Origin: an uncultured Clostridia bacterium
GTDB taxonomy: Bacteria > Bacillota > Clostridia > Oscillospirales > CAG-272
Direction of reading: 5' to 3'
Assembly: GCA_948466345.1 (NCBI GenBank)
Contig: CAOKAC010000004.1
Location: 1-64,000, forward strand
Length of the DNA stretch: 64,000 nucleotides
Shown here: positions 6,675 through 16,613 of the stretch, piece by piece
Layout: each line of letters begins with the position of its first letter
Position numbering within the stretch: the stretch's first letter is position 1
Translations under genes and position numbers: made by a program
Notes under the pieces: model-generated
Seen by the model: only the letters and a program-made list of their open reading frames with translations
The model's database searches: none
Told to the model about the DNA's origin: nothing

Positions 6675-6750
6675 GGGAGCATAGCTCAGCTGGGAGAGCA
6701 TCTGCCTTACAAGCAGAGGGTCATAGGTTCGAGCCCTATTGTTCCCACCA
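6675..6750 (+). tRNA. tRNA-Val (anticodon TAC)
   Basis: A 76-nt cloverleaf with acceptor GGGAGCA/TGTTCCC, anticodon loop containing TAC, TTCGAGC T-loop and encoded CCA. First of five tRNAs transcribed together. Confidence 0.97.
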
Positions 6751-6753
6751 TAC

Positions 6754-6830
6754 GGCCCGGTAGCTCAGTTGGTTAGAGCGCTAGCCTGTCACGCTAGAGG
6801 TCAGGGGTTCGAGCCCCCTTCGGGTCGCCA
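6754..6830 (+). tRNA. tRNA-Asp (anticodon GTC)
   Basis: A 77-nt cloverleaf, acceptor GGCCCGG/TCGGGTC with G-T pairs, anticodon loop CTGTCAC, TTCGAGC T-loop, discriminator G, encoded CCA. Three nt after tRNA-Val. Confidence 0.97.
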
Positions 6831-6866
6831 TTTTTGTAAATTGCAAAAGAATTTTCGCAGCCATGC

Positions 6867-6942
6867 GCCTCTGTAGCTCAGTTGGTAGAGCAGGAGACTG
6901 AAAATCTCCGTGTCGTTGGTTCGATTCCGACCGGAGGCACCA
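6867..6942 (+). tRNA. tRNA-Phe (anticodon GAA)
   Basis: A 76-nt cloverleaf, acceptor GCCTCTG/CGGAGGC, anticodon loop CTGAAAA, TTCGATT T-loop, encoded CCA. Confidence 0.97.
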
Positions 6943-6945
6943 TAT

Positions 6946-7021
6946 GCGGATTTAGCTCATTTGGTAGAGCGCAACCTTGCCAAGGTTGAGGTGGCGGGTT
7001 CGAGCCCCGTAATCCGCTCCA
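6946..7021 (+). tRNA. tRNA-Gly (anticodon GCC)
   Basis: A 76-nt cloverleaf, acceptor GCGGATT/AATCCGC, anticodon loop TTGCCAA, TTCGAGC T-loop, encoded CCA. Confidence 0.97.
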
Positions 7022-7099
7022 ACGGTTTAGACCGTTCATGATAATGAGGAATTAAAAAAGTTCCTGTCTTTTGAAGGAAATCCCTTCTAAAGAGTAATC

Positions 7100-7131
7100 A
7101 AGCCGCATAGAATAATGCGGCTTCCTTTATC
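7100..7131 (+). terminator. Hairpin between tRNA-Gly and tRNA-Cys, possible weak terminator
   Basis: AAGCCGCAT (7100-7108) pairs perfectly with ATGCGGCTT (7115-7123), followed only by CCTTTAT. It may end most tRNA transcripts or be a processing hairpin, because tRNA-Cys follows 20 nt later without an obvious promoter. Confidence 0.5.
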
Positions 7132-7142
7132 TCCACGATCCC

Positions 7143-7217
<75 letters not shown>

Positions 7218-7333: not shown

Positions 7334-7362
7334 TTGATTTTTCTACTATATATGGTTATAAT
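7334..7362 (+). promoter_or_regulatory. Promoter of the FkbH-ACP-MBOAT-SGNH operon
   Basis: TTGATT (7334-7339), 17 bp, TATAAT (7357-7362). The leader to the start codon at 7522 is about 150 nt. I see no recognisable riboswitch in it. Confidence 0.75.
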
Positions 7363-7521: not shown

Positions 7522-9300
7522 ATGCACGAACTTTTAAAATATCCCTTTGATTCGCAAATGCTCCTGAAAAAAAGGCGTAAGATAAAAAAAGAATTGCAGG
7601 AATCGGGCGCTGCCTTCATTCATAAAAAAATTGCAATTTTGGGTGGCTCCACCACCCACGATATCAAAGAAATTTTAGAACTGTTTCTCCTGGATGCCGG
7701 TATTGCGGGAGAGTTTTATGAGTCGGAGTTTGGCCAATATTGGCAGGATGCTATGTTTGGTTCTCCGGAGCTGGACGAATTTGCACCAGACATTGTTTTT
7801 ATTCATACAAGTATTCGTAATATAACGGCGTTTCCACCGGTGCAGTCTACCCAAGAAGAATCGGATGCCCTGTTGGACGCTGAATACAATAGATTTCAAG
7901 TTATGTGGGACAAGCTGAAAGAACGCTGGGACCCTATTATCATTCAAAATAATTTTGAAATGCCTTATTATCGTATTCTAGGCAATCGAGATGCTTATGA
8001 CCATCGGGGCAAAACCAACTTTGTCACCAGACTCAATCAGAAGTTTTACGAATACGCAGCCGTCAACACAACATTTTATATAAATGATATCCAGTATTTC
8101 TCCGCGGATTATGGCCTTTCCAAATATGCGGATCCTCTATACTGGCATATGTACAAATATAGTATGTGTTTGGATGCTATTCCGGAATTTGCATTTAATT
8201 TAGCCGCAATCATCAAATCAATTTACGGAAAAAATAAAAAAGCGCTTGCGTTGGATTTGGACAACACCCTTTGGGGCGGTGTTGTAGGCGATGACGGAGT
8301 GGAAGGGATTGAGATTGGTCACGAAACCTCCATGGGACAGGTTTACAGCGAATTTCAAAACTATGTAAAAGAATTATCCCAGATCGGTATAACGCTGAAT
8401 GTCAACTCCAAGAACGAGATGGAAAATGCCCTTGCCGGATTAAATCATCCGGAGGGAACCCTGCGCTCGGATGACTTTATTGTAATCAAAGCCAACTGGA
8501 ATACCAAGGACAGAAATTTGTCTGAAATTGCATCGGAGCTGAATATTGCTGCAGACAGTATCGTATTTGTGGACGATAACCCAGCCGAACGGGAGATCGT
8601 AAGACAAAGCTTCCCTGACGTTTCTGTCCCGCAGATGTGCGCTCCGGAAAGCTATATCCGCACAATAGATCGTTCTCGCTTTTTTGAGGTCACCCAATTG
8701 TCTGCAGACGATATCAAGCGAAACGAGATGTATCGTGCCAATGTTTTGCGCGCCTCGGAAATGCAGTCATACGCCGATTATGACCAATATCTCCATTCCC
8801 TGGAAATGCATGCGCTGATCCGGGATTTTGAACCGGTATATATTTCACGAATTGCGCAGCTGACTAACAAATCCAATCAGTTTAATCTTACCACGTGGCG
8901 GATATCCAATGCGGAGATGGAGGAGATTGCAAAAGCAGACAAGTATATTCGTCTCTTTGGAAAATTGTCGGATAAATATGGAGATAACGGTGTTGTCACC
9001 GTGATAATTGGAGAAAAGGATGGAGATACGCTGCATATACGGCTTTGGCTGATGAGCTGCCGTGTGCTCAAGCGGAATATGGAGCATGCTATGCTGGACG
9101 CTTTAGTGGCCCAGGCGCAGTCCGAAGGGATCACCCAAATTATAGGATATTATTATAAAACTGCAAAAAACAATATGGTACGGGATTTTTATGGCGCTAT
9201 GGGCTTTGATAAGGTTTTGGAAGACGGGGACGACAGCGTATGGAGTCTGCAAATTGCAAACTATGAAAATCAAAATACAGTAATTGAGGTAGAGGACTAA
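7522..9300 (+). CDS. FkbH-like HAD-IIIC family protein (acyl carrier protein loading enzyme)
   Basis: A 592-aa protein of the FkbH family. The middle domain has the HAD motif LDLDNTLWGG (D245 and D247 by count) and VFVDDNPAEREIVR. The N-terminal third (ILGGSTTHDIKEIL) resembles an SGNH-like region, and the C-terminal 150 residues (LTNKSNQFNLTTW, GVVTVIIGE, ARDFYGAMGF-like end) look like a GNAT fold. Characterised FkbH enzymes take 1,3-bisphosphoglycerate, dephosphorylate it and load a glyceryl unit onto an acyl carrier protein. The ACP gene overlaps this stop (TAATG), fitting that reaction here. The ATG at 7522 is chosen for its GGGAGG site; the frame is open 37 codons upstream. The actual three-carbon unit transferred is not shown by sequence. 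Confidence 0.9.
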   Translation: MHELLKYPFDSQMLLKKRRKIKKELQESGAAFIHKKIAILGGSTTHDIKEILELFLLDAGIAGEFYESEFGQYWQDAMFGSPELDEFAPDIVFIHTSIRNITAFPPVQSTQEESDALLDAEYNRFQVMWDKLKERWDPIIIQNNFEMPYYRILGNRDAYDHRGKTNFVTRLNQKFYEYAAVNTTFYINDIQYFSADYGLSKYADPLYWHMYKYSMCLDAIPEFAFNLAAIIKSIYGKNKKALALDLDNTLWGGVVGDDGVEGIEIGHETSMGQVYSEFQNYVKELSQIGITLNVNSKNEMENALAGLNHPEGTLRSDDFIVIKANWNTKDRNLSEIASELNIAADSIVFVDDNPAEREIVRQSFPDVSVPQMCAPESYIRTIDRSRFFEVTQLSADDIKRNEMYRANVLRASEMQSYADYDQYLHSLEMHALIRDFEPVYISRIAQLTNKSNQFNLTTWRISNAEMEEIAKADKYIRLFGKLSDKYGDNGVVTVIIGEKDGDTLHIRLWLMSCRVLKRNMEHAMLDALVAQAQSEGITQIIGYYYKTAKNNMVRDFYGAMGFDKVLEDGDDSVWSLQIANYENQNTVIEVED

Positions 9301-9539
9301 TGGATACAAATGAAATTTTTGAAAGACTGAACGAAGTATTTAGAGATGTTTTTGACGACGACACCATTACCGTTACGGAGGATACAACCGCAGCGGACGT
9401 GGACGATTGGGATTCTCTCATGCACATCACACTGATTTCTGCAGTGGAAGATGAATTTGATATCAAATTCAATATGAAAGATGTAGTTAGCATGAAGCGG
9501 GTGGGCGATATGGTTGATATCATCCAGCAGGAAGCTTAA
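9300..9539 (+). CDS. Acyl carrier protein dedicated to the FkbH/MBOAT system
   Basis: A 79-aa acidic four-helix carrier. The phosphopantetheine serine is S39 in DDWDSLMHI. The N-terminal half is very acidic (FDDDTITVTEDTTAADVDDWD). It is a stand-alone carrier with no fab genes nearby. Its start overlaps the FkbH stop and an MBOAT acyltransferase follows 15 nt later. The arrangement suggests it shuttles an acyl unit from FkbH to the membrane enzyme, as DltC does in teichoic acid D-alanylation. The role is inferred from context; the ACP call itself is firm. Confidence 0.92.
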   Translation: MDTNEIFERLNEVFRDVFDDDTITVTEDTTAADVDDWDSLMHITLISAVEDEFDIKFNMKDVVSMKRVGDMVDIIQQEA

Positions 9540-9554
9540 CGGCGCCTTGAAATT

Positions 9555-11123
9555 ATGATATTTACGTCGTTTAAGTTTCTTTTATTTATCAGCGCTACGC
9601 TGCTGGGATACTTTATATTTCCGAAAAAATACCGTTGGCTGTGGCTCCTCGGCGCAAGCTATTATTTTTACTTATCGGCAAGTGTAAAATATTCTGTCTT
9701 TTTGATTTTTTCCACAGTCATTACATATTTTGCAGCATTGGCGATAGAGCGGATGGGCGCGGTATCCATCCTTCCCGAATGGACCAAGGAAGAAAAAAAA
9801 CAGGCAAAGAAAAAAGCTGCTGGCAGGCAAAAACTGATCCTGGCAGTGGTACTGTTTGTGAATTTCGGCGTTTTATTTTCGCTGAAATATTATAATTTTG
9901 CCGCTTCCAGTTTTGCGAGTCTTGCGGGCATATTTGGATTGGAGGTATCCCCGTCGGTTTTAAAGATTGCCATTCCCGTGGGCATATCTTTTTATACCTT
10001 CCAAGTAATAGGATATCTGATTGATGTGTACCGTACTACATGCAGCGCCCAGAAGAATTTTCTGAAATATGCATTGTTTGTATCCTTTTTCCCCCAGATT
10101 ATGCAGGGGCCTATTGGAAGATACAACGAGCTGGCTCCCGGTTTGTATGAAGGACACAAATTTGATTACAACCGGGCGGCGTTTGGTCTGCAAAGAATGA
10201 TGTTCGGTTTTTTTGAAAAGCTGGTGATTGCGGACCGTCTTGCTATACTGGTGGATACCGTTTGGGCAAACTACGCTGCGTTTGGGCGGTTGCAGCTGAT
10301 TTTGGCATGCTTTTTTTATGCGGTTCAAATCTATGCAGATTTTGCAGGGTATATGGATATTGCCCTAGGGTGTGCGCAGATTATGGGTATCCCTATGGCA
10401 GAAAACTTTGATGCGCCGTATTTCTCTAGGTCTGTGCCTGAATTTTGGAGAAGATGGCATATGACGCTGGGATCGTGGTTCAAGGACTATCTGTTTTATC
10501 CGGTGCTGCGCAGCGGATGGTGTACGAGGCTTGCAAAGAGTCTGAAAAAGAAATTCGGCAAAACGGTATCTGGAAATGCAACAACTGCCATTGCTTTATT
10601 TTTTGTATGGATGTTTACCGGGCTCTGGCACGGCGCTAGCTGGCACTATGTGGCATGGGGCGTTTACTACGGTGTTTTGATCATACTGTCAATGCTTCTA
10701 GCTCCTTTATTTGACTGGCTGGTTGCAAAGCTGCACCTGGATCGTTCCCGTCCCAGCTATATGTTGGTGCAGGGACTGAAAACCTTTGTTATTGTATGCA
10801 TAGGATATATTTTGTTCCGGTCAGATTCCATGTCGGCTGCCGCCGGTATGATCGGCGCTATTTTCCGTATCGGTACGCCGGTGACCACGCCGCTGTCCAT
10901 GGGACTGGATGAAAAAGATATGCTTGTGGCCACAGTGGGCATCGTGATTTTGTTTATCGTAGATATATTCCGGTATCGAAAGTTCGATGTACGCCAGTGG
11001 ATTGGGGAGCAGGGGCTGTGGCTGCGTTGGATCATTTACTTAGCCGCGATTTTCGCAGTGCTGATCTTTGGTATTTACGGCCCTGCGTACAGCGCTTCGT
11101 CCTTCATATACTTCGATTTCTGA
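9555..11123 (+). CDS. MBOAT family membrane-bound O-acyltransferase (DltB/AlgI-like)
   Basis: A 522-aa polytopic membrane protein with about ten hydrophobic segments. It has the MBOAT core YFSRSVPEFWRRWHMTLGSW (about 290-315) and the catalytic histidine H358 in TGLWHGASWHYVAWG. In AlgI and DltB this enzyme takes an acyl group from a cytoplasmic donor (a carrier protein in DltB) and passes it across the membrane to an extracellular polymer. Sitting after an FkbH/ACP pair and before an SGNH protein, it is the likely export step of the operon. A basic loop (KEEKKQAKKKAAGRQK) lies at about 77-92. The Shine-Dalgarno site is weak, so translation may depend on the upstream gene. Confidence 0.93.
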   Translation: MIFTSFKFLLFISATLLGYFIFPKKYRWLWLLGASYYFYLSASVKYSVFLIFSTVITYFAALAIERMGAVSILPEWTKEEKKQAKKKAAGRQKLILAVVLFVNFGVLFSLKYYNFAASSFASLAGIFGLEVSPSVLKIAIPVGISFYTFQVIGYLIDVYRTTCSAQKNFLKYALFVSFFPQIMQGPIGRYNELAPGLYEGHKFDYNRAAFGLQRMMFGFFEKLVIADRLAILVDTVWANYAAFGRLQLILACFFYAVQIYADFAGYMDIALGCAQIMGIPMAENFDAPYFSRSVPEFWRRWHMTLGSWFKDYLFYPVLRSGWCTRLAKSLKKKFGKTVSGNATTAIALFFVWMFTGLWHGASWHYVAWGVYYGVLIILSMLLAPLFDWLVAKLHLDRSRPSYMLVQGLKTFVIVCIGYILFRSDSMSAAAGMIGAIFRIGTPVTTPLSMGLDEKDMLVATVGIVILFIVDIFRYRKFDVRQWIGEQGLWLRWIIYLAAIFAVLIFGIYGPAYSASSFIYFDF

Positions 11124-11133
11124 GGCAATACCA

Positions 11134-12123
11134 ATGAAAATAAAACTATATAGGATTCTAAAAACAGTATCTTTTCTGGTGCTTTTCTGTATACTCTTTT
11201 CTGGTGTGACTTATGTGCTGCGGCATAAAGGAGAAGCAGAAATTCCACTTCCATTTTATGAGGAAGAAAAGAATTCTTTGGATGTTGTGTTTATCGGATC
11301 CAGTCACTCCATGTGCTCGCTGCTTCCTATGGAATTGTACAAAGATAAGGGGATTGCCTCTTACGTGTTTGCAAGCTCCGCACAAGTAACAGCCCAGTCT
11401 TTTTATCAGCTGCAGGCTGCGCTGAAACGGCAAATGCCGAAATTGATTGTGCTGGATGTATCCGGTGTGATTTACGATGCCAAAATCGGATCAGAAGAAT
11501 TTACCCATGTGCAAATTGACAATATGGAATTTTCCCGAGTCAAGTATCAGGCTATTTTTGATTTGTTTGAACCTGCGGATCGATTGGAATATATATTTAA
11601 TATAATTCGTTTCCACACCCGGTGGAAGGAGGTTGAGAAAGAAGACTTTCTTCCGATTACATCTTATACCAAAGGTGCATTTGTATCCACTGCAGTGAAG
11701 GAACAAGTTTGGGAAAAGCCGGTTCCTGCAGAGGAAAAAGAAGAATTGCCGAAGATTCCGGAAGAATATTTGCGCAAGTCTATAGAACTGTGTCAGGAAC
11801 GGGGCATAGAGGTGCTTTTGTATAACGCGCCTGCTTGTGATTCTGTGGGATTTGCCAGACAATATAATAAGGTTGCTGATATAGCCGATGAATATGGTGT
11901 ACAGTATATAAATTTTATGTATTTGACAGAGGAGATCGGCATAGATCCTACAACAGACTTCCGAGATGAGGCCCACTGCAATGTATACGGCGCCCAAAAA
12001 GTTACAAAATATTTAGGGGATTACCTAACAGAGCGTTATGATCTTCCGGACAGGAGAGAGGATCCGGCGTATGCGGGCTGGGATACCCAGTATGAAGCAT
12101 ATCGGAATGCATATACGTATTAA
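11134..12123 (+). CDS. Membrane-anchored SGNH-type protein (DltD/AlgX-like partner of MBOAT)
   Basis: A 329-aa protein with one N-terminal membrane segment (TVSFLVLFCILFSGVTYVL) and an extracellular domain. SGNH/GDSL features are visible: block I VVFIGSSHSMCS (serine about 57-59) and the C-terminal DEAHC, giving D278 and H281 of the usual D-x-x-H pair. The layout resembles DltD and the SGNH proteins that follow AlgI-type MBOATs. It probably completes transfer of the acyl group to a surface polymer. ATG 11134 is chosen because it precedes the membrane segment directly; it begins 10 nt after the MBOAT stop. The acceptor is unknown. Confidence 0.8.
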   Translation: MKIKLYRILKTVSFLVLFCILFSGVTYVLRHKGEAEIPLPFYEEEKNSLDVVFIGSSHSMCSLLPMELYKDKGIASYVFASSAQVTAQSFYQLQAALKRQMPKLIVLDVSGVIYDAKIGSEEFTHVQIDNMEFSRVKYQAIFDLFEPADRLEYIFNIIRFHTRWKEVEKEDFLPITSYTKGAFVSTAVKEQVWEKPVPAEEKEELPKIPEEYLRKSIELCQERGIEVLLYNAPACDSVGFARQYNKVADIADEYGVQYINFMYLTEEIGIDPTTDFRDEAHCNVYGAQKVTKYLGDYLTERYDLPDRREDPAYAGWDTQYEAYRNAYTY

Positions 12124-12130
12124 TCGAATG

Positions 12131-12160
12131 GGGAAGGCAATGCTTTCCCTTTTCTTATTT
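12131..12160 (+). terminator. Terminator of the FkbH-MBOAT operon
   Basis: GGGAAGGC (12131-12138) pairs with GCTTTCCC (12142-12149) around AAT, followed by TTTTCTTATTT. Confidence 0.88.
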
Positions 12161-12220: not shown

Positions 12221-12328
12221 AATTGCAATGCATTTTTACATAGTAAAATGGCGTGGAAGGTAGGGAAAAATTTAAATTTTGCTGTTTCGGCTTTGTGCCG
12301 CCCACTGGACGGCAGAACGGAGATTCAA

Positions 12329-14851
12329 ATGAATACATACGAAAATGCCGGCGCGATTTCATTTCCTCTTGGAGGAATGGGTGCAGGCAGTGTAGGGCTT
12401 GCAGGGGATGGTAGACTGATCGATTTTGAATGGTTTCACCGCCCCAATCGCTGCTGTATCAATCCCTTTTCCCATTTCGCAATAAAAACGGAGGCGGAAG
12501 GTATACTGCGGGACTGCCGGATACTGCAGGGCGATATACAGTCCAGCTATATGGGAAATCCCGGTACCGGACGTGAGCTTTGGGTATATGGCAATGGCGC
12601 AGACAGAGGTACAATGGCTGGATTTGTCCATTTTGCAGATACGGTGTTTCAGGGGCCTTTTCCCATTGCCCAGATAGAATATAAGGATCCTGCTTTTCCG
12701 GGCAGCATTCGGCTGCGGGCGATGAATCCTTTTATACCCATGAACGATCGGGATTCCAGTTTGCCGGCGGCGCTTTTTCAATTTGAACTGGAAAACAACA
12801 CGCAGGAGCATCTGGAGTATACGCTGGCCTTTTCTTGTAACAACCTGTTTGCATCCGGTACACAGAATACATATTATACGGAAGACGGTATCAGAGGGAT
12901 ATGCATGACCGGCGGACGTGATCCATCGGATGTTTTGTTTGGTAATGCTGTCGTTGCCGCGTTAGATGGAGCAGTAGAGTACCAGGAGCATTGGTACAGG
13001 GGCGGCTGGTTTGATGAGGTTACCTCTTTTTGGCGGGATTTTTGCACGGTCAAGCCGTTGCAGAACCGAACCTATAGCCAGCCCGGAGAGGGGGCAACGG
13101 ACGTTTGTACGCTGGCGTCTCGCGTGCGTCTTGCACCTGGAGAAAAAACACAGCTTCGGTTTTTACTTACCTGGTATGTCCCATGGGCGGAAAAATATTG
13201 GGACAAGGAACGCCCACGCTGGAAAACGTATTATGCCACTTTATTTGCGGATGCCCGGCAGGTAGCTGCGTATTGCGCCAGAGAGTGGGGCCGGCTTTGG
13301 AAGGAGACCGAACTCTTTGCAAGTGCTCTATTTGCATCATCCCTTCCGGAACCAATGTTGGATGCGATACAGGGAACGCTTGCTGTTTTAAAAAGTACGA
13401 CCTGCTTGCGTTTGGAAAATGGAGCGTTTTACGGCTGGGAGGGTGTAACCGAAAAAAGCGGAAGCTGTGAGGGAACCTGCAGTCATGTTTGGAATTACGC
13501 TTGGGCGCTTGCATATCTGTTTCCCTCGTTGGAGCGCTCTATACGGGAAACGGAGATGCGGTACAATCTGTACTCTGATGGGAAAATGGGAATGCGGACA
13601 ACGCTTCCGCTGGGGGCGTCTCCATGGGGATTTCGTGCCTGCTTGGACGGACAGATGGGGACGGTGCTCAAAATGTACCGGGAATGGAAGCTATCCGGGG
13701 AGGATGCCTTCCTTCGCAGACATTGGGGAGAGGTCAAGCGGATAATCCAGTATGCTTGGAGCGATGAGAATCCGGATCGATGGGATCCGGAGCGTTCAGG
13801 CGTACTTACCGGGAGACAGCATCATACACTGGATATGGAACTGTTTGGCCCTTCTTCTTGGTTGGAAGGCTTATATTTAGCCGCTTTACGCGCAGGCTCA
13901 GAGATGGCGCGTGCAATGGACGATATACCTGCTTCCAAAGAATTTGATATTATTTTTGGCAAGGGTAAAAAATGGATAGAGGATAATCTTTGGAACGGAG
14001 CGTATTATATACAAAAAATTGATTTGCAGGACAAAAGCATTTTAGATGCGTATGAAATGGGAGAGCTGATCAATGCTGACGGTTATTGGAACGAAGAAGC
14101 AGGAGAGATCAAATACCAAATCGGCGATGGATGTGCAATTGATCAGGTCGTAGCAGCGTGGTATGGAGATTTGCTGCGGCTTGGAGAAATATTTGATCCT
14201 GCTCGCAGAAAGGCGGCGCTGCAAAGTATTTATCACAATAACTTCAAATCCATGCGCAGCTTCAATAATCCATGCCGGGTGTTTTGCCTGAACGATGAAT
14301 GTGGTGTGATCATGTGTTCATGGGATGCGGCAGAAAAAAAGCCTGCGCTTCCTCTCACCTATGCGCAGGAGGTTATGACCGGATTTGAATATGCGTTGGC
14401 TTGCAATATGCTTCAATGCGGCATGGAAAAAGAAGCGGAGGACGTTGTTGGGGCAGTGCGGCATCGTTATGACGGATATAAACGAAATCCTTGGGCGGAA
14501 CTGGAATGCGGCGCCAGCTATGCACGCAGTATGGCTAGTTATTCGCTGCTGCTGGCTTATAGTGGGTTTTGGTGTGATATGACAAAAGCGCATATTGCTT
14601 TTCGACCGCTACATAAGGGCAGATATTTTTGGTCGGCAGAAGGTGCATGGGGCACGGCCGTCTGGGAAGACGACCGCTTTATATTGAACGTACTATGGGG
14701 TGAGCTACACTTGTCTTCTATAGAGGTGCCATTGGATACAGTGACGCGATTGGAGACAGGCGGGAAGATGTGTTCGTTTACATGGGAAGAGCAAACGGTT
14801 TTTGCCGATATTTTTTTAAAGGAAAATGAAGATTTACAAATCGTAAAATGA
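12329..14851 (+). CDS. GH116-type glycoside hydrolase (GBA2/DUF608-like beta-glucosidase or beta-glucosylceramidase family)
   Basis: An 840-aa cytoplasmic protein without signal peptide. The N-terminal beta-sandwich begins SFPLGGMGAGSVGLAGDG, the family hallmark. The C-terminal (alpha/alpha)6 barrel contains EGTCSHVWNYAWALAYLFP (about 380) and GDGCAIDQVVAAWYGD (about 600), the regions where GH116 enzymes carry their catalytic acids. I chose the ATG at 12329 because GGAG is correctly spaced; the frame is open 27 codons upstream. GH116 members act on beta-glucosides, beta-xylosides or N-acetylglucosaminides, so the substrate is open. A GH2 gene follows 16 nt later; neither has an export signal, so both likely act on imported oligosaccharides. 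Confidence 0.85.
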   Translation: MNTYENAGAISFPLGGMGAGSVGLAGDGRLIDFEWFHRPNRCCINPFSHFAIKTEAEGILRDCRILQGDIQSSYMGNPGTGRELWVYGNGADRGTMAGFVHFADTVFQGPFPIAQIEYKDPAFPGSIRLRAMNPFIPMNDRDSSLPAALFQFELENNTQEHLEYTLAFSCNNLFASGTQNTYYTEDGIRGICMTGGRDPSDVLFGNAVVAALDGAVEYQEHWYRGGWFDEVTSFWRDFCTVKPLQNRTYSQPGEGATDVCTLASRVRLAPGEKTQLRFLLTWYVPWAEKYWDKERPRWKTYYATLFADARQVAAYCAREWGRLWKETELFASALFASSLPEPMLDAIQGTLAVLKSTTCLRLENGAFYGWEGVTEKSGSCEGTCSHVWNYAWALAYLFPSLERSIRETEMRYNLYSDGKMGMRTTLPLGASPWGFRACLDGQMGTVLKMYREWKLSGEDAFLRRHWGEVKRIIQYAWSDENPDRWDPERSGVLTGRQHHTLDMELFGPSSWLEGLYLAALRAGSEMARAMDDIPASKEFDIIFGKGKKWIEDNLWNGAYYIQKIDLQDKSILDAYEMGELINADGYWNEEAGEIKYQIGDGCAIDQVVAAWYGDLLRLGEIFDPARRKAALQSIYHNNFKSMRSFNNPCRVFCLNDECGVIMCSWDAAEKKPALPLTYAQEVMTGFEYALACNMLQCGMEKEAEDVVGAVRHRYDGYKRNPWAELECGASYARSMASYSLLLAYSGFWCDMTKAHIAFRPLHKGRYFWSAEGAWGTAVWEDDRFILNVLWGELHLSSIEVPLDTVTRLETGGKMCSFTWEEQTVFADIFLKENEDLQIVK

Positions 14852-14867
14852 TCAAGAGGAGAAAATT

Positions 14868-16613
14868 ATGTGGATTCCAAGACCGGAATACCCGCGTCCG
14901 TCGCTCATGCGGGGAGAAGAAACATGGATAAATTTAAATGGAACATGGTCCTTTGAAATAGACAGGGCCAACAGTGGCAAACAGCGTGGACTGCAGAATC
15001 AAGCGCAGTATGCCGGAGAGATTGTAGTGCCCTTTGTGCCGGAATCTGCAGCGTCCGGAGTAGAGGACACAGACTTTATGCAGCGGGTGTGGTACTGCCG
15101 GACTTTTAAACTGCCGGAGCGCTTTGATATTGCAAAAGGTCGGGTCTTACTGCATATAGGCGCAATGGATTATGAAGGCGAAGTGTGGATCAACGGCAAC
15201 ACTGCGGGTAGTCACAAGGGCGGATATGCACCTGCCTCTTTTGATATCACCAAACTGCTGCAAAGCGGAGAAAACCGGATTAACATTACAGTGGAAGATT
15301 CTTTGCGTACGCCGCTGCAGCCCTCTGGAAAGCAGTGTGAACAGTATCATCCATACGCGTGCTTTTATACCCGCTGCACGGGGATTTGGCAGACCGTGTG
15401 GTTAGAGTATGTTCCCGCCATTTACATCCAGAAGGTGAAGATGCTGCCGGATGTGAAAGGAGAAAAGTTAGATGTGCAGGTTACGGTATCCGGGGCAGCG
15501 CAGGTGCAGGCTGTTGTAACCTATCAGGGAGAGCTTGTCGCTGCAGGAGGCGTTACTGCCACAGGCGGTACGGCAGTATTTTCTTTGGCGATTGCCGATC
15601 CTGTTCTTTGGGGGCCGGGAGAGCCGAATCTGTATGATATTGTACTGACTGCCGGAGAGGATCGAGTGGTATCGTACTTTGGAATGCGTAGTGTGGAAGT
15701 AGATGGAAACCGGGTGTTGATCAACGGAAAGCCTCTATTTCAACGTCTGGTCTTGGATCAAGGGTATTATCCCGACGGGATTTATACCGCATTGGATTAT
15801 GCGGCATTCTCAAAAGACATCCACCTGTGTATGGATTCCGGCTTTAACGGTGCCAGAATGCACATGAAGGTATTTGAACCAGGCTTTATTTGGGAGGCAG
15901 ATCACGCAGGGTATCTGCTTTGGGGAGAGTACCCCAACTGGGGATTGGATATTACCAGACATGAGGCCATGGGAATTATGCTGCCGGAATGGCTGGAGAT
16001 TATCGAGAGAGACTGCAATAGTCCTTCTATTATAGGCTGGTGTCCCTTTAACGAATCCTTCCCGGGGACCAATACAGTAATTTATGATATGATATATAAA
16101 ATTACCAAGTTGTTTGATCCTACTCGCCTGGTGCTGGATACTTCCGGCTATGTCCATGCGGGCCAGACCGATATGTATGATGTACATGATTACGAACAAA
16201 ACCCACAGACTTTTGCAGAGCACTATGCGCCGTTGCTGAAAGGAGAAGCTCCTTATTTTAACGATTTAGGAGGCAATGTAGGATACGACGGAAAGCTGCC
16301 TTTCTTTGTATCGGAGTTTGGCGGAGCATTCTTTGACATTGACGCTGTTGCTGAAAACGACGGGCAAAACTCGGGTAATCCATGGGGATATGGCGACGCT
16401 CCTCAAACCTCGGAGGATTTATATCAGAGATTTGCTGCTCTTTGCACGACTCTTTTGGAAAATCCGCATATCTGTGGCCTGTGCTACACACAGTTCACTG
16501 ATGTAGAGCAGGAGATGAATGGTCTTTTTGCTTTTGACCGCCGCCCCAAAATTGAGGTTGAAAGATTGCGTGCTGTTTTGGACCGCAAGGCTGCAATTGA
16601 AAAGGAATTTTAG
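14868..16613 (+). CDS. GH2 family glycoside hydrolase
   Basis: A 581-aa protein with the GH2 order: jelly-roll sugar-binding domain (1-180, WINLNGTWSFEID, GAMDYEGEVWINGNTAGSHK), immunoglobulin-like domain (about 180-280) and a TIM barrel. The acid/base is about E395 in GWCPFNESFPG and the nucleophile about E483 in FVSEFGGAFF. It lacks the extra C-terminal domains of LacZ, giving a short form like beta-glucuronidases and some beta-galactosidases; I cannot assign the sugar. There is no signal peptide. AGGAG precedes the ATG, and it is cotranscribed with the GH116 gene. Confidence 0.9.
   Translation: MWIPRPEYPRPSLMRGEETWINLNGTWSFEIDRANSGKQRGLQNQAQYAGEIVVPFVPESAASGVEDTDFMQRVWYCRTFKLPERFDIAKGRVLLHIGAMDYEGEVWINGNTAGSHKGGYAPASFDITKLLQSGENRINITVEDSLRTPLQPSGKQCEQYHPYACFYTRCTGIWQTVWLEYVPAIYIQKVKMLPDVKGEKLDVQVTVSGAAQVQAVVTYQGELVAAGGVTATGGTAVFSLAIADPVLWGPGEPNLYDIVLTAGEDRVVSYFGMRSVEVDGNRVLINGKPLFQRLVLDQGYYPDGIYTALDYAAFSKDIHLCMDSGFNGARMHMKVFEPGFIWEADHAGYLLWGEYPNWGLDITRHEAMGIMLPEWLEIIERDCNSPSIIGWCPFNESFPGTNTVIYDMIYKITKLFDPTRLVLDTSGYVHAGQTDMYDVHDYEQNPQTFAEHYAPLLKGEAPYFNDLGGNVGYDGKLPFFVSEFGGAFFDIDAVAENDGQNSGNPWGYGDAPQTSEDLYQRFAALCTTLLENPHICGLCYTQFTDVEQEMNGLFAFDRRPKIEVERLRAVLDRKAAIEKEF

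Follow-up and report, generated by a model that had tools for sequence, protein, structure and literature searches.

A carrier-fed MBOAT/SGNH operon with an FkbH-type loader in Clostridia: a probable route for glyceryl export to an envelope polymer

Introduction

A 2025 study recognized two donors for bacterial systems that pair a membrane-bound O-acyltransferase (MBOAT) with an SGNH protein: Dlt uses a carrier protein, and all other pathways use an acyl-coenzyme A (acyl-CoA) without a carrier (PMC12148441). In the PatA/PatB pair, acetyl from CoA is loaded on the Tyr of the C-terminal FXYXXF peptide of PatA, where PatB picks it up; Dlt performs the same relay with an acyl group that comes from DltC through DltX (PMC12148441). 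The region between the two His of DltB holds a helix that binds DltC (PMC11035591). Here we describe a four-gene operon for an FkbH-type protein, an acyl carrier protein (ACP), an MBOAT and an SGNH protein in 64,000 nt from an uncultured Clostridia bacterium (assembly GCA_948466345.1, contig CAOKAC010000004.1, positions 1 to 64,000); this whole stretch is termed the window. The operon probably encodes a Dlt-like exporter whose carrier is loaded by FkbH.

Comparison of the operon with described systems revealed a mixed character. As in Dlt, a carrier protein is encoded together with MBOAT and SGNH genes, and the MBOAT has the DltB fold, two catalytic His, the FXYXXF Tyr and a carrier-type segment. 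Unlike Dlt, the operon has no DltA-like ligase gene, and FkbH occupies that place; no DltX gene is among the four, and the MBOAT itself bears the motif as a C-terminal fusion with two extra helices; and the MBOAT scores far below the DltB equivalog cutoff (TIGR04091; 158 vs 375 bits). The operon resembles PatA/PatB and AlgI/AlgJ/AlgX in its fused FXYXXF motif and SGNH partner, the latter being DHHW/AlgX-like in many relatives. However, those systems are carrier-free (PMC12148441), whereas the FkbH operon encodes a carrier and a loader, and its MBOAT lacks the PLGG[NS] segment. It shares with the glyceryl-ACP cassettes of tetronate and methoxymalonyl pathways an FkbH-domain protein beside a stand-alone ACP, and the HAD motifs and Cys were kept in all FkbH proteins that we aligned. 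It differs from those cassettes in having no polyketide synthase, FabH-like or dehydrogenase gene, in the presence of an FkbH_N domain, and in the predicted use of the acyl-ACP by a membrane exporter. Judged from sequence, the FkbH system appears to be a hybrid that is carrier-fed as Dlt, has a fused shuttle as PatA, and uses FkbH as loader.

Table 1. Features of the FkbH operon and of the second operon on the same contig
Feature	Position	Strand	Description	Evidence
FkbH-type loader gene	7522..9300	+	592 aa; GGGAGG ahead of start	profile and PDB sequence searches, conservation
ACP gene	9300..9539	+	79 aa; overlaps fkbH via TAATG	family profiles, conservation, co-occurrence
MBOAT gene	9555..11123	+	522 aa; 15-nt gap after ACP gene	profiles, PDB search, AlphaFold model
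FIYFDF acyl-shuttle motif (FXYXXF, Tyr519)	11103..11120	+	MBOAT residues 517-522	sequence; alignment of 36 MBOATs
SGNH gene	11134..12123	+	329 aa; 10-nt gap after MBOAT gene; membrane-anchored	AlphaFold fold match, alignment
Best promoter-like match	7334..7362	+	TTGATT-17-TATAAT	not above chance for region
Probable intrinsic terminator	12130..12150	+	9-bp stem, then T run	
DltA-type operon (ligase, carrier, MBOAT, SGNH)	same contig, ~91-95.6 kb (L179:5089-9606)	-		profile searches

Properties of the four proteins

The FkbH protein belongs to the FkbH family (TIGR01686, 270 bits; cutoff 146.65). It consists of an N-terminal FkbH_N domain (PF21211, residues 36-231), a HAD domain with D245/D247, S296/K297 and D351/D352, and a C-terminal domain with C513 in LMSCRV. 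A PDB sequence search returned BF1531 (3slr). The founding biochemistry of FkbH proteins reportedly concerned OzmB. Alignment of 101 FkbH sequences revealed that C513 is invariant and that D245, D247, S296, K297, D351 and D352 are each at least 95% conserved. The equivalents of C513, D245, D247, S296, D351 and D352 are also present in 14 additional FkbH proteins sampled across the phylum, one of which sits inside a 2141-residue open frame. The catalytic set on which the FkbH assignment in the first-pass annotation depended is evidently whole, the invariant Cys included. By analogy with FkbH chemistry, C513 is most likely the thioester-carrying Cys.

The ACP matched PF00550 (PP-binding) and scored below the cutoffs of general ACP models. 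Its Ser39, picked out by the first-pass annotation, was confirmed as the phosphopantetheine site (DDWDSL), and a phosphopantetheinyl-transferase gene was found in the source genome. The protein belongs to a distinct subfamily marked by FRDVFDD...MKNVGEM.

The MBOAT matched PF03062, and its nearest equivalog was TIGR04091. DltB was returned by the PDB sequence search and was also the best fold match of the AlphaFold model (pLDDT 87.7), in which two extra C-terminal helices (453-474 and 488-506) precede the terminal FIYFDF. The catalytic histidines are H302 and H359, with the carrier-type segment at residues 312-335. The His previously noted in LWHGASWH is present, but its number is 359, not 358. 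The C-terminus (SSFIYFDF), which had gone unremarked, is the FXYXXF "acyl shuttle" motif known from PatA and DltX. H302, H359, F517 and Y519 were invariant across 36 aligned MBOATs. The combination of catalytic His and C-terminal FXYXXF is that of MBOAT/SGNH polymer acyltransferases. FXYXXF was also considered as a marker of donor type and was dropped because carrier-type and CoA-type MBOATs both carry it.

The SGNH protein had no family match in Pfam or NCBIfam. Its AlphaFold model (pLDDT 82.5) resembles TesA-type SGNH hydrolases, DltD and PatB, with S57 (GSS), D278 and H281 (DEAH) as the Ser-His-Asp set; the earlier description of a membrane-anchored SGNH protein with GSS and DEAH agrees with this assignment. 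Among 19 SGNH sequences, S57 and H281 were invariant, and the residue at D278 was Asp in 14 and Asn in 5. The model and the conserved residues suggest an acyltransferase with a DltD/PatB-like role. The DHHW partner of relatives matched PF14286 and AlgX (PF16822), an SGNH-like acetyltransferase family.

Co-occurrence of FkbH, ACP and exporter genes

One FkbH scan of GTDB genomes revealed 298 related places. Locus counts were taken from the best 80 of these, which lie in Oscillospiraceae, Lachnospiraceae, other Clostridia and one record labelled Alistipes. ACP was present in 71 of the 80, MBOAT in 61 and an SGNH-type gene in 63; the remainder were mostly short contigs. At loci with more than 4 kb on each FkbH flank (n = 43), the respective numbers were 40, 40 and 36, and after dereplication at 80% FkbH identity (22 loci) they were 20, 20 and 19. 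Genomes of the family have 1-4 MBOATs per ~2 Mb, so that the chance of one within 8 kb is ~3%. The gene order varied: the window operon has FkbH-ACP-MBOAT-SGNH, many rumen clostridia have MBOAT-DHHW-FkbH-ACP, Lachnospiraceae loci combine the MBOAT with glycosyltransferases and a GDSL-type SGNH gene, and further loci have sets that include split transketolase, MaoC and SDR genes. Constant content despite changing order and partner type is a stronger sign of shared function than synteny alone. The joint occurrence of the four genes, for which the first-pass annotation had advised a neighborhood search, is evidently wide.

FkbH stood alone at eight loci (L032, L033, L034, L052, L055, L056, L067 and L082), which represent six genomes; L034 and L056 are on the same contig, as are L033 and L067. 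An unlinked MBOAT-DHHW-ACP operon was found in all six genomes (G109, G057, G193 and those of L055, L082 and L052). The ACPs of these operons scored 119-137 bits on the profile of FkbH-associated ACPs, and the MBOATs of G109 and G057, the two present in our MBOAT tree, nested among FkbH-linked MBOATs. The possibility that FkbH-only loci break the link between FkbH and exporter was rejected because the exporter operon lies elsewhere in every genome. Since the ACP gene in these six split genomes sits beside MBOAT and DHHW and away from FkbH, the ACP travels with the exporter. Genome G009 is split the other way, with FkbH and ACP linked and a carrier-type MBOAT plus DHHW elsewhere. Among named strains, Acutalibacter sp. 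1XD8-36 carries a split set, and Subdoligranulum variabile TSDC17.2-1.1 has FkbH and ACP, with no MBOAT in the stretch covered.

The FkbH subfamily (at least 316 bits) and the ACP subfamily (E ≤ 1e-12) were found in an identical set of 13 of the 196 family genomes, from 8 genera (Fisher p = 1.5e-20, a value that is indicative only because the 316-bit cut was chosen after the scores were known and some genomes are close kin). When all 27 genomes with an FkbH domain were counted, p was 3e-13.

Two other kinds of locus were seen. At L184, L185 and L186, in other Bacillota, distant FkbH-ACP pairs lie in apparent glycan loci with no MBOAT; their neighbors, judged by eye, are nucleotide-sugar, glycosyltransferase or flagellar genes. 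The use of FkbH outside polyketides seems to be broader than this exporter system. At L048 and L050 (L148 is the same gene as L050), an MBOAT with Asn for the first catalytic His (RRWNMT) adjoins a short FkbH-domain gene (342-353 aa), perhaps as another FkbH-MBOAT system.

MBOAT segment between the catalytic histidines

The stretch between H302 and H359 was compared in MBOATs with and without a carrier gene (loci L131-L163 and L199-L219 plus the tree set). P(L/M)GG(N/S/K) was found in 31 of 41 carrier-free MBOATs from sampled family and phylum genomes and in 10 of 15 in the tree set, whereas among MBOATs with a carrier gene it was absent from 65 of 66 (tree set) and from 4 of 4 (other sample), related sequences being counted as they come with no correction for kinship. 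Apparently carrier-free MBOATs without the motif were mostly of DHHW type with an ACP past the short flank, or belonged to split operons; the others were a DltB-like protein, an atypical form in which Asn replaces H302, and one MBOAT on a truncated contig. Carrier-free MBOATs with PLGG[NS] are presumably CoA users, and presence or absence of this segment may separate CoA-fed from carrier-fed bacterial MBOATs. The window MBOAT, unlike PatA and AlgI, has no such segment and is accompanied by a carrier; it appears to be of the carrier-using, not the CoA-using, type. In the MBOAT tree, FkbH-linked members fell mainly into two clades, with the segment replaced differently in each, and the DltA-linked MBOAT of the source genome fell inside one of the two.

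A second, DltA-type operon in the same genome

The operon of this DltA-linked MBOAT (Table 1) had been missed in the first-pass annotation. Its DltA-like ligase scored 314 bits on PRK04813, below cutoff, and its carrier is DltC-like; D-alanine is a putative load, the DltA models being below cutoff. The MBOAT ends in FIYGQF, a fused shuttle motif, and this operon also seems to need no separate DltX. The two operons are 39% identical in MBOAT and 36% identical in SGNH, and their carriers are barely alike. The simplest reading is that one exporter type is served by two alternative loaders.

Because the window MBOAT lacks PLGG[NS] and a related, paralogous DltA-type operon is present, the window operon can be regarded as a Dlt-type exporter with an FkbH loader. 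The earlier reading of a Dlt-like operon with FkbH for DltA holds for the architecture (gene set, catalytic residues and carrier-type MBOAT) but not as a replacement genome-wide: the FkbH operon accompanies a distinct DltA-type operon in this genome.

Proposed pathway and alternatives

We propose a pathway in three steps, the transfers being modeled on Dlt and PatA/PatB. FkbH would react with 1,3-bisphosphoglycerate to give a (phospho)glyceryl thioester, with C513 as the most likely site; the HAD site of FkbH would strip the phosphate, and the glyceryl group would pass to the phosphopantetheine on ACP Ser39. Glyceryl-ACP would then dock at the cytoplasmic face of the MBOAT, and H359 would help to pass the acyl group on to Tyr519 of FIYFDF at the outer face. 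Finally, the acyl-Tyr peptide would swing to the SGNH protein, whose S57 would accept the acyl group and esterify an envelope polymer. That the ACP-borne FkbH product is what the MBOAT and SGNH protein export is highly probable. The full proposal, in which FkbH-loaded ACP feeds MBOAT/SGNH, the acyl group is glyceryl and the acceptor is an envelope polymer, is probable as a whole. We also lean, a little less firmly, towards ranking the system as a third loading class for the transmembrane acylation of polymers in bacteria: 1,3-bisphosphoglycerate would provide the acyl group and also the energy, and neither CoA nor ATP-dependent adenylation would be needed.

Several observations weigh against the proposal. 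The assignment of 1,3-bisphosphoglycerate as substrate relies on FkbH enzymes from antibiotic biosynthesis, to which identity is low. Extra acyl-modifying genes (MaoC, SDR, split transketolase) occur at some related loci, where the exported group may differ. The FkbH-linked MBOAT of L182 has a CoA-type segment, as the sole plain exception. A search of the source genome revealed no TagF-like (PF04464) gene.

From FkbH chemistry, glyceryl from 1,3-bisphosphoglycerate is the likeliest group. It is unlikely, yet worth weighing, that the same machine exports another unit (lactyl, phosphoglyceryl, hydroxymalonyl, glycolyl or a longer hydroxyacyl group) made by FkbH with or without other enzymes. Antibiotic pathways oxidize and methylate FkbH products (PMC7489565), and some relatives have genes for a MaoC-type dehydratase, an SDR or a split transketolase between or beside FkbH, ACP and MBOAT; however, tailoring genes of this kind are missing from the window operon and from most other loci. 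Split transketolase genes lie between FkbH and ACP at L061:8001-16164, L068:2288-11004 and L114:8001-16721, and L061, L068 and further loci, L090 among them, have MaoC and SDR genes as well; this suggests that the acyl group is altered before export in those loci.

Gene neighbors in relatives make an envelope polymer the likeliest acceptor. A TagF-like CDP-glycerol glycerophosphotransferase domain (PF04464) fused to glycosyltransferase family 2 (GT2) was found in seven related loci (L106, L109, L117, L119, L121, L122 and L129), in several of them just upstream of MBOAT or FkbH, and Stealth phosphotransferase genes were present in 6 of the 7. These neighbors are a lead to the acceptor, and the TagF-like genes hint at teichoic acid. 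Three proteins that have a sulfatase fold, the size of LtaS and membrane segments at the N-terminus are encoded in the source genome. In the lipoteichoic acid repeat of Clostridium difficile, glyceric acid is on C1 of a sugar and is not described as an ester side group (PMC10642750). An exporter working as proposed on a lipid, lipoprotein or secreted small molecule is quite improbable. MBOATs elsewhere do acylate lipids and proteins, the operon has no acceptor gene and the genome has no TagF-like gene; against this, the SGNH partners are of DltD, DHHW/AlgX and GDSL types, and polymer genes (PF04464, Stealth, GT2 and GtrA) adjoin the system in relatives.

The more distant FkbH-ACP pairs of other Bacillota, in glycan loci without MBOAT, would fit FkbH-ACP serving a cytoplasmic glycan or metabolite pathway, with MBOAT/SGNH an ordinary acetyl-CoA-fed O-acetyltransferase that shares the locus. 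This is very improbable: the MBOATs here are without the segment seen in carrier-free ones, six genomes have the ACP gene in one operon with MBOAT-DHHW and FkbH at another locus, and in the paralogous operon an MBOAT/SGNH pair of this type is encoded alongside a DltA/DltC-like loader. Least probable of all is export of fatty acyl groups by an ordinary fatty-acid ACP with FkbH incidental: the ACP does score on general ACP models, though below cutoffs, but its subfamily tracks FkbH genome by genome, even when unlinked, and the operon has no fatty-acid gene.

An FkbH-fed exporter of the kind proposed would be a new loading variant beside the CoA-fed and DltA/DltC-fed classes. It would combine a carrier protein with a fused shuttle motif, have FkbH where Dlt has an ATP-using ligase, and give FkbH a role outside polyketides. 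We found no earlier description of FkbH tied to an MBOAT exporter in the open-access literature, most subscription papers and preprints lying outside the search; the two papers in it that mention FkbH and MBOAT together are about cyanobacterial peptides. For glycerate esters, with which these gut clostridia probably decorate a surface molecule, the same search gave no earlier description either. If the group is glyceryl, the surface would bear an uncharged ester of a hydroxy acid at the expense of glycolysis, a modification that envelope chemists would have had no cause to seek. Glycolysis would then be linked directly to surface glycerate esters in many gut clostridia; one scan gave about 300 related places, and the best 80 include Oscillospiraceae and Lachnospiraceae of gut and rumen.

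Operon signals and flanking genes

The four genes are intact open reading frames in the same direction (7522-12123), and their head-to-tail arrangement with an overlap or short gaps, as first annotated, was borne out (Table 1). The single promoter claimed at the same time was not: the promoter scan of the region gave 14 matches, against 12.9 ± 4.0 in shuffled sequences. The single terminator is plausible. Past it, GH116-type and GH2-type glycosidase genes lie in the same direction (12248-16613), with no evident operon link.

The fkbH and ACP genes are absent from three genomes of the same genus (G008, G121 and G164); the operon is therefore accessory. Five tRNA genes (Val, Asp, Phe, Gly and Cys) are located at 6675-7217, directly 5′ of the operon, which may have entered at a tRNA.

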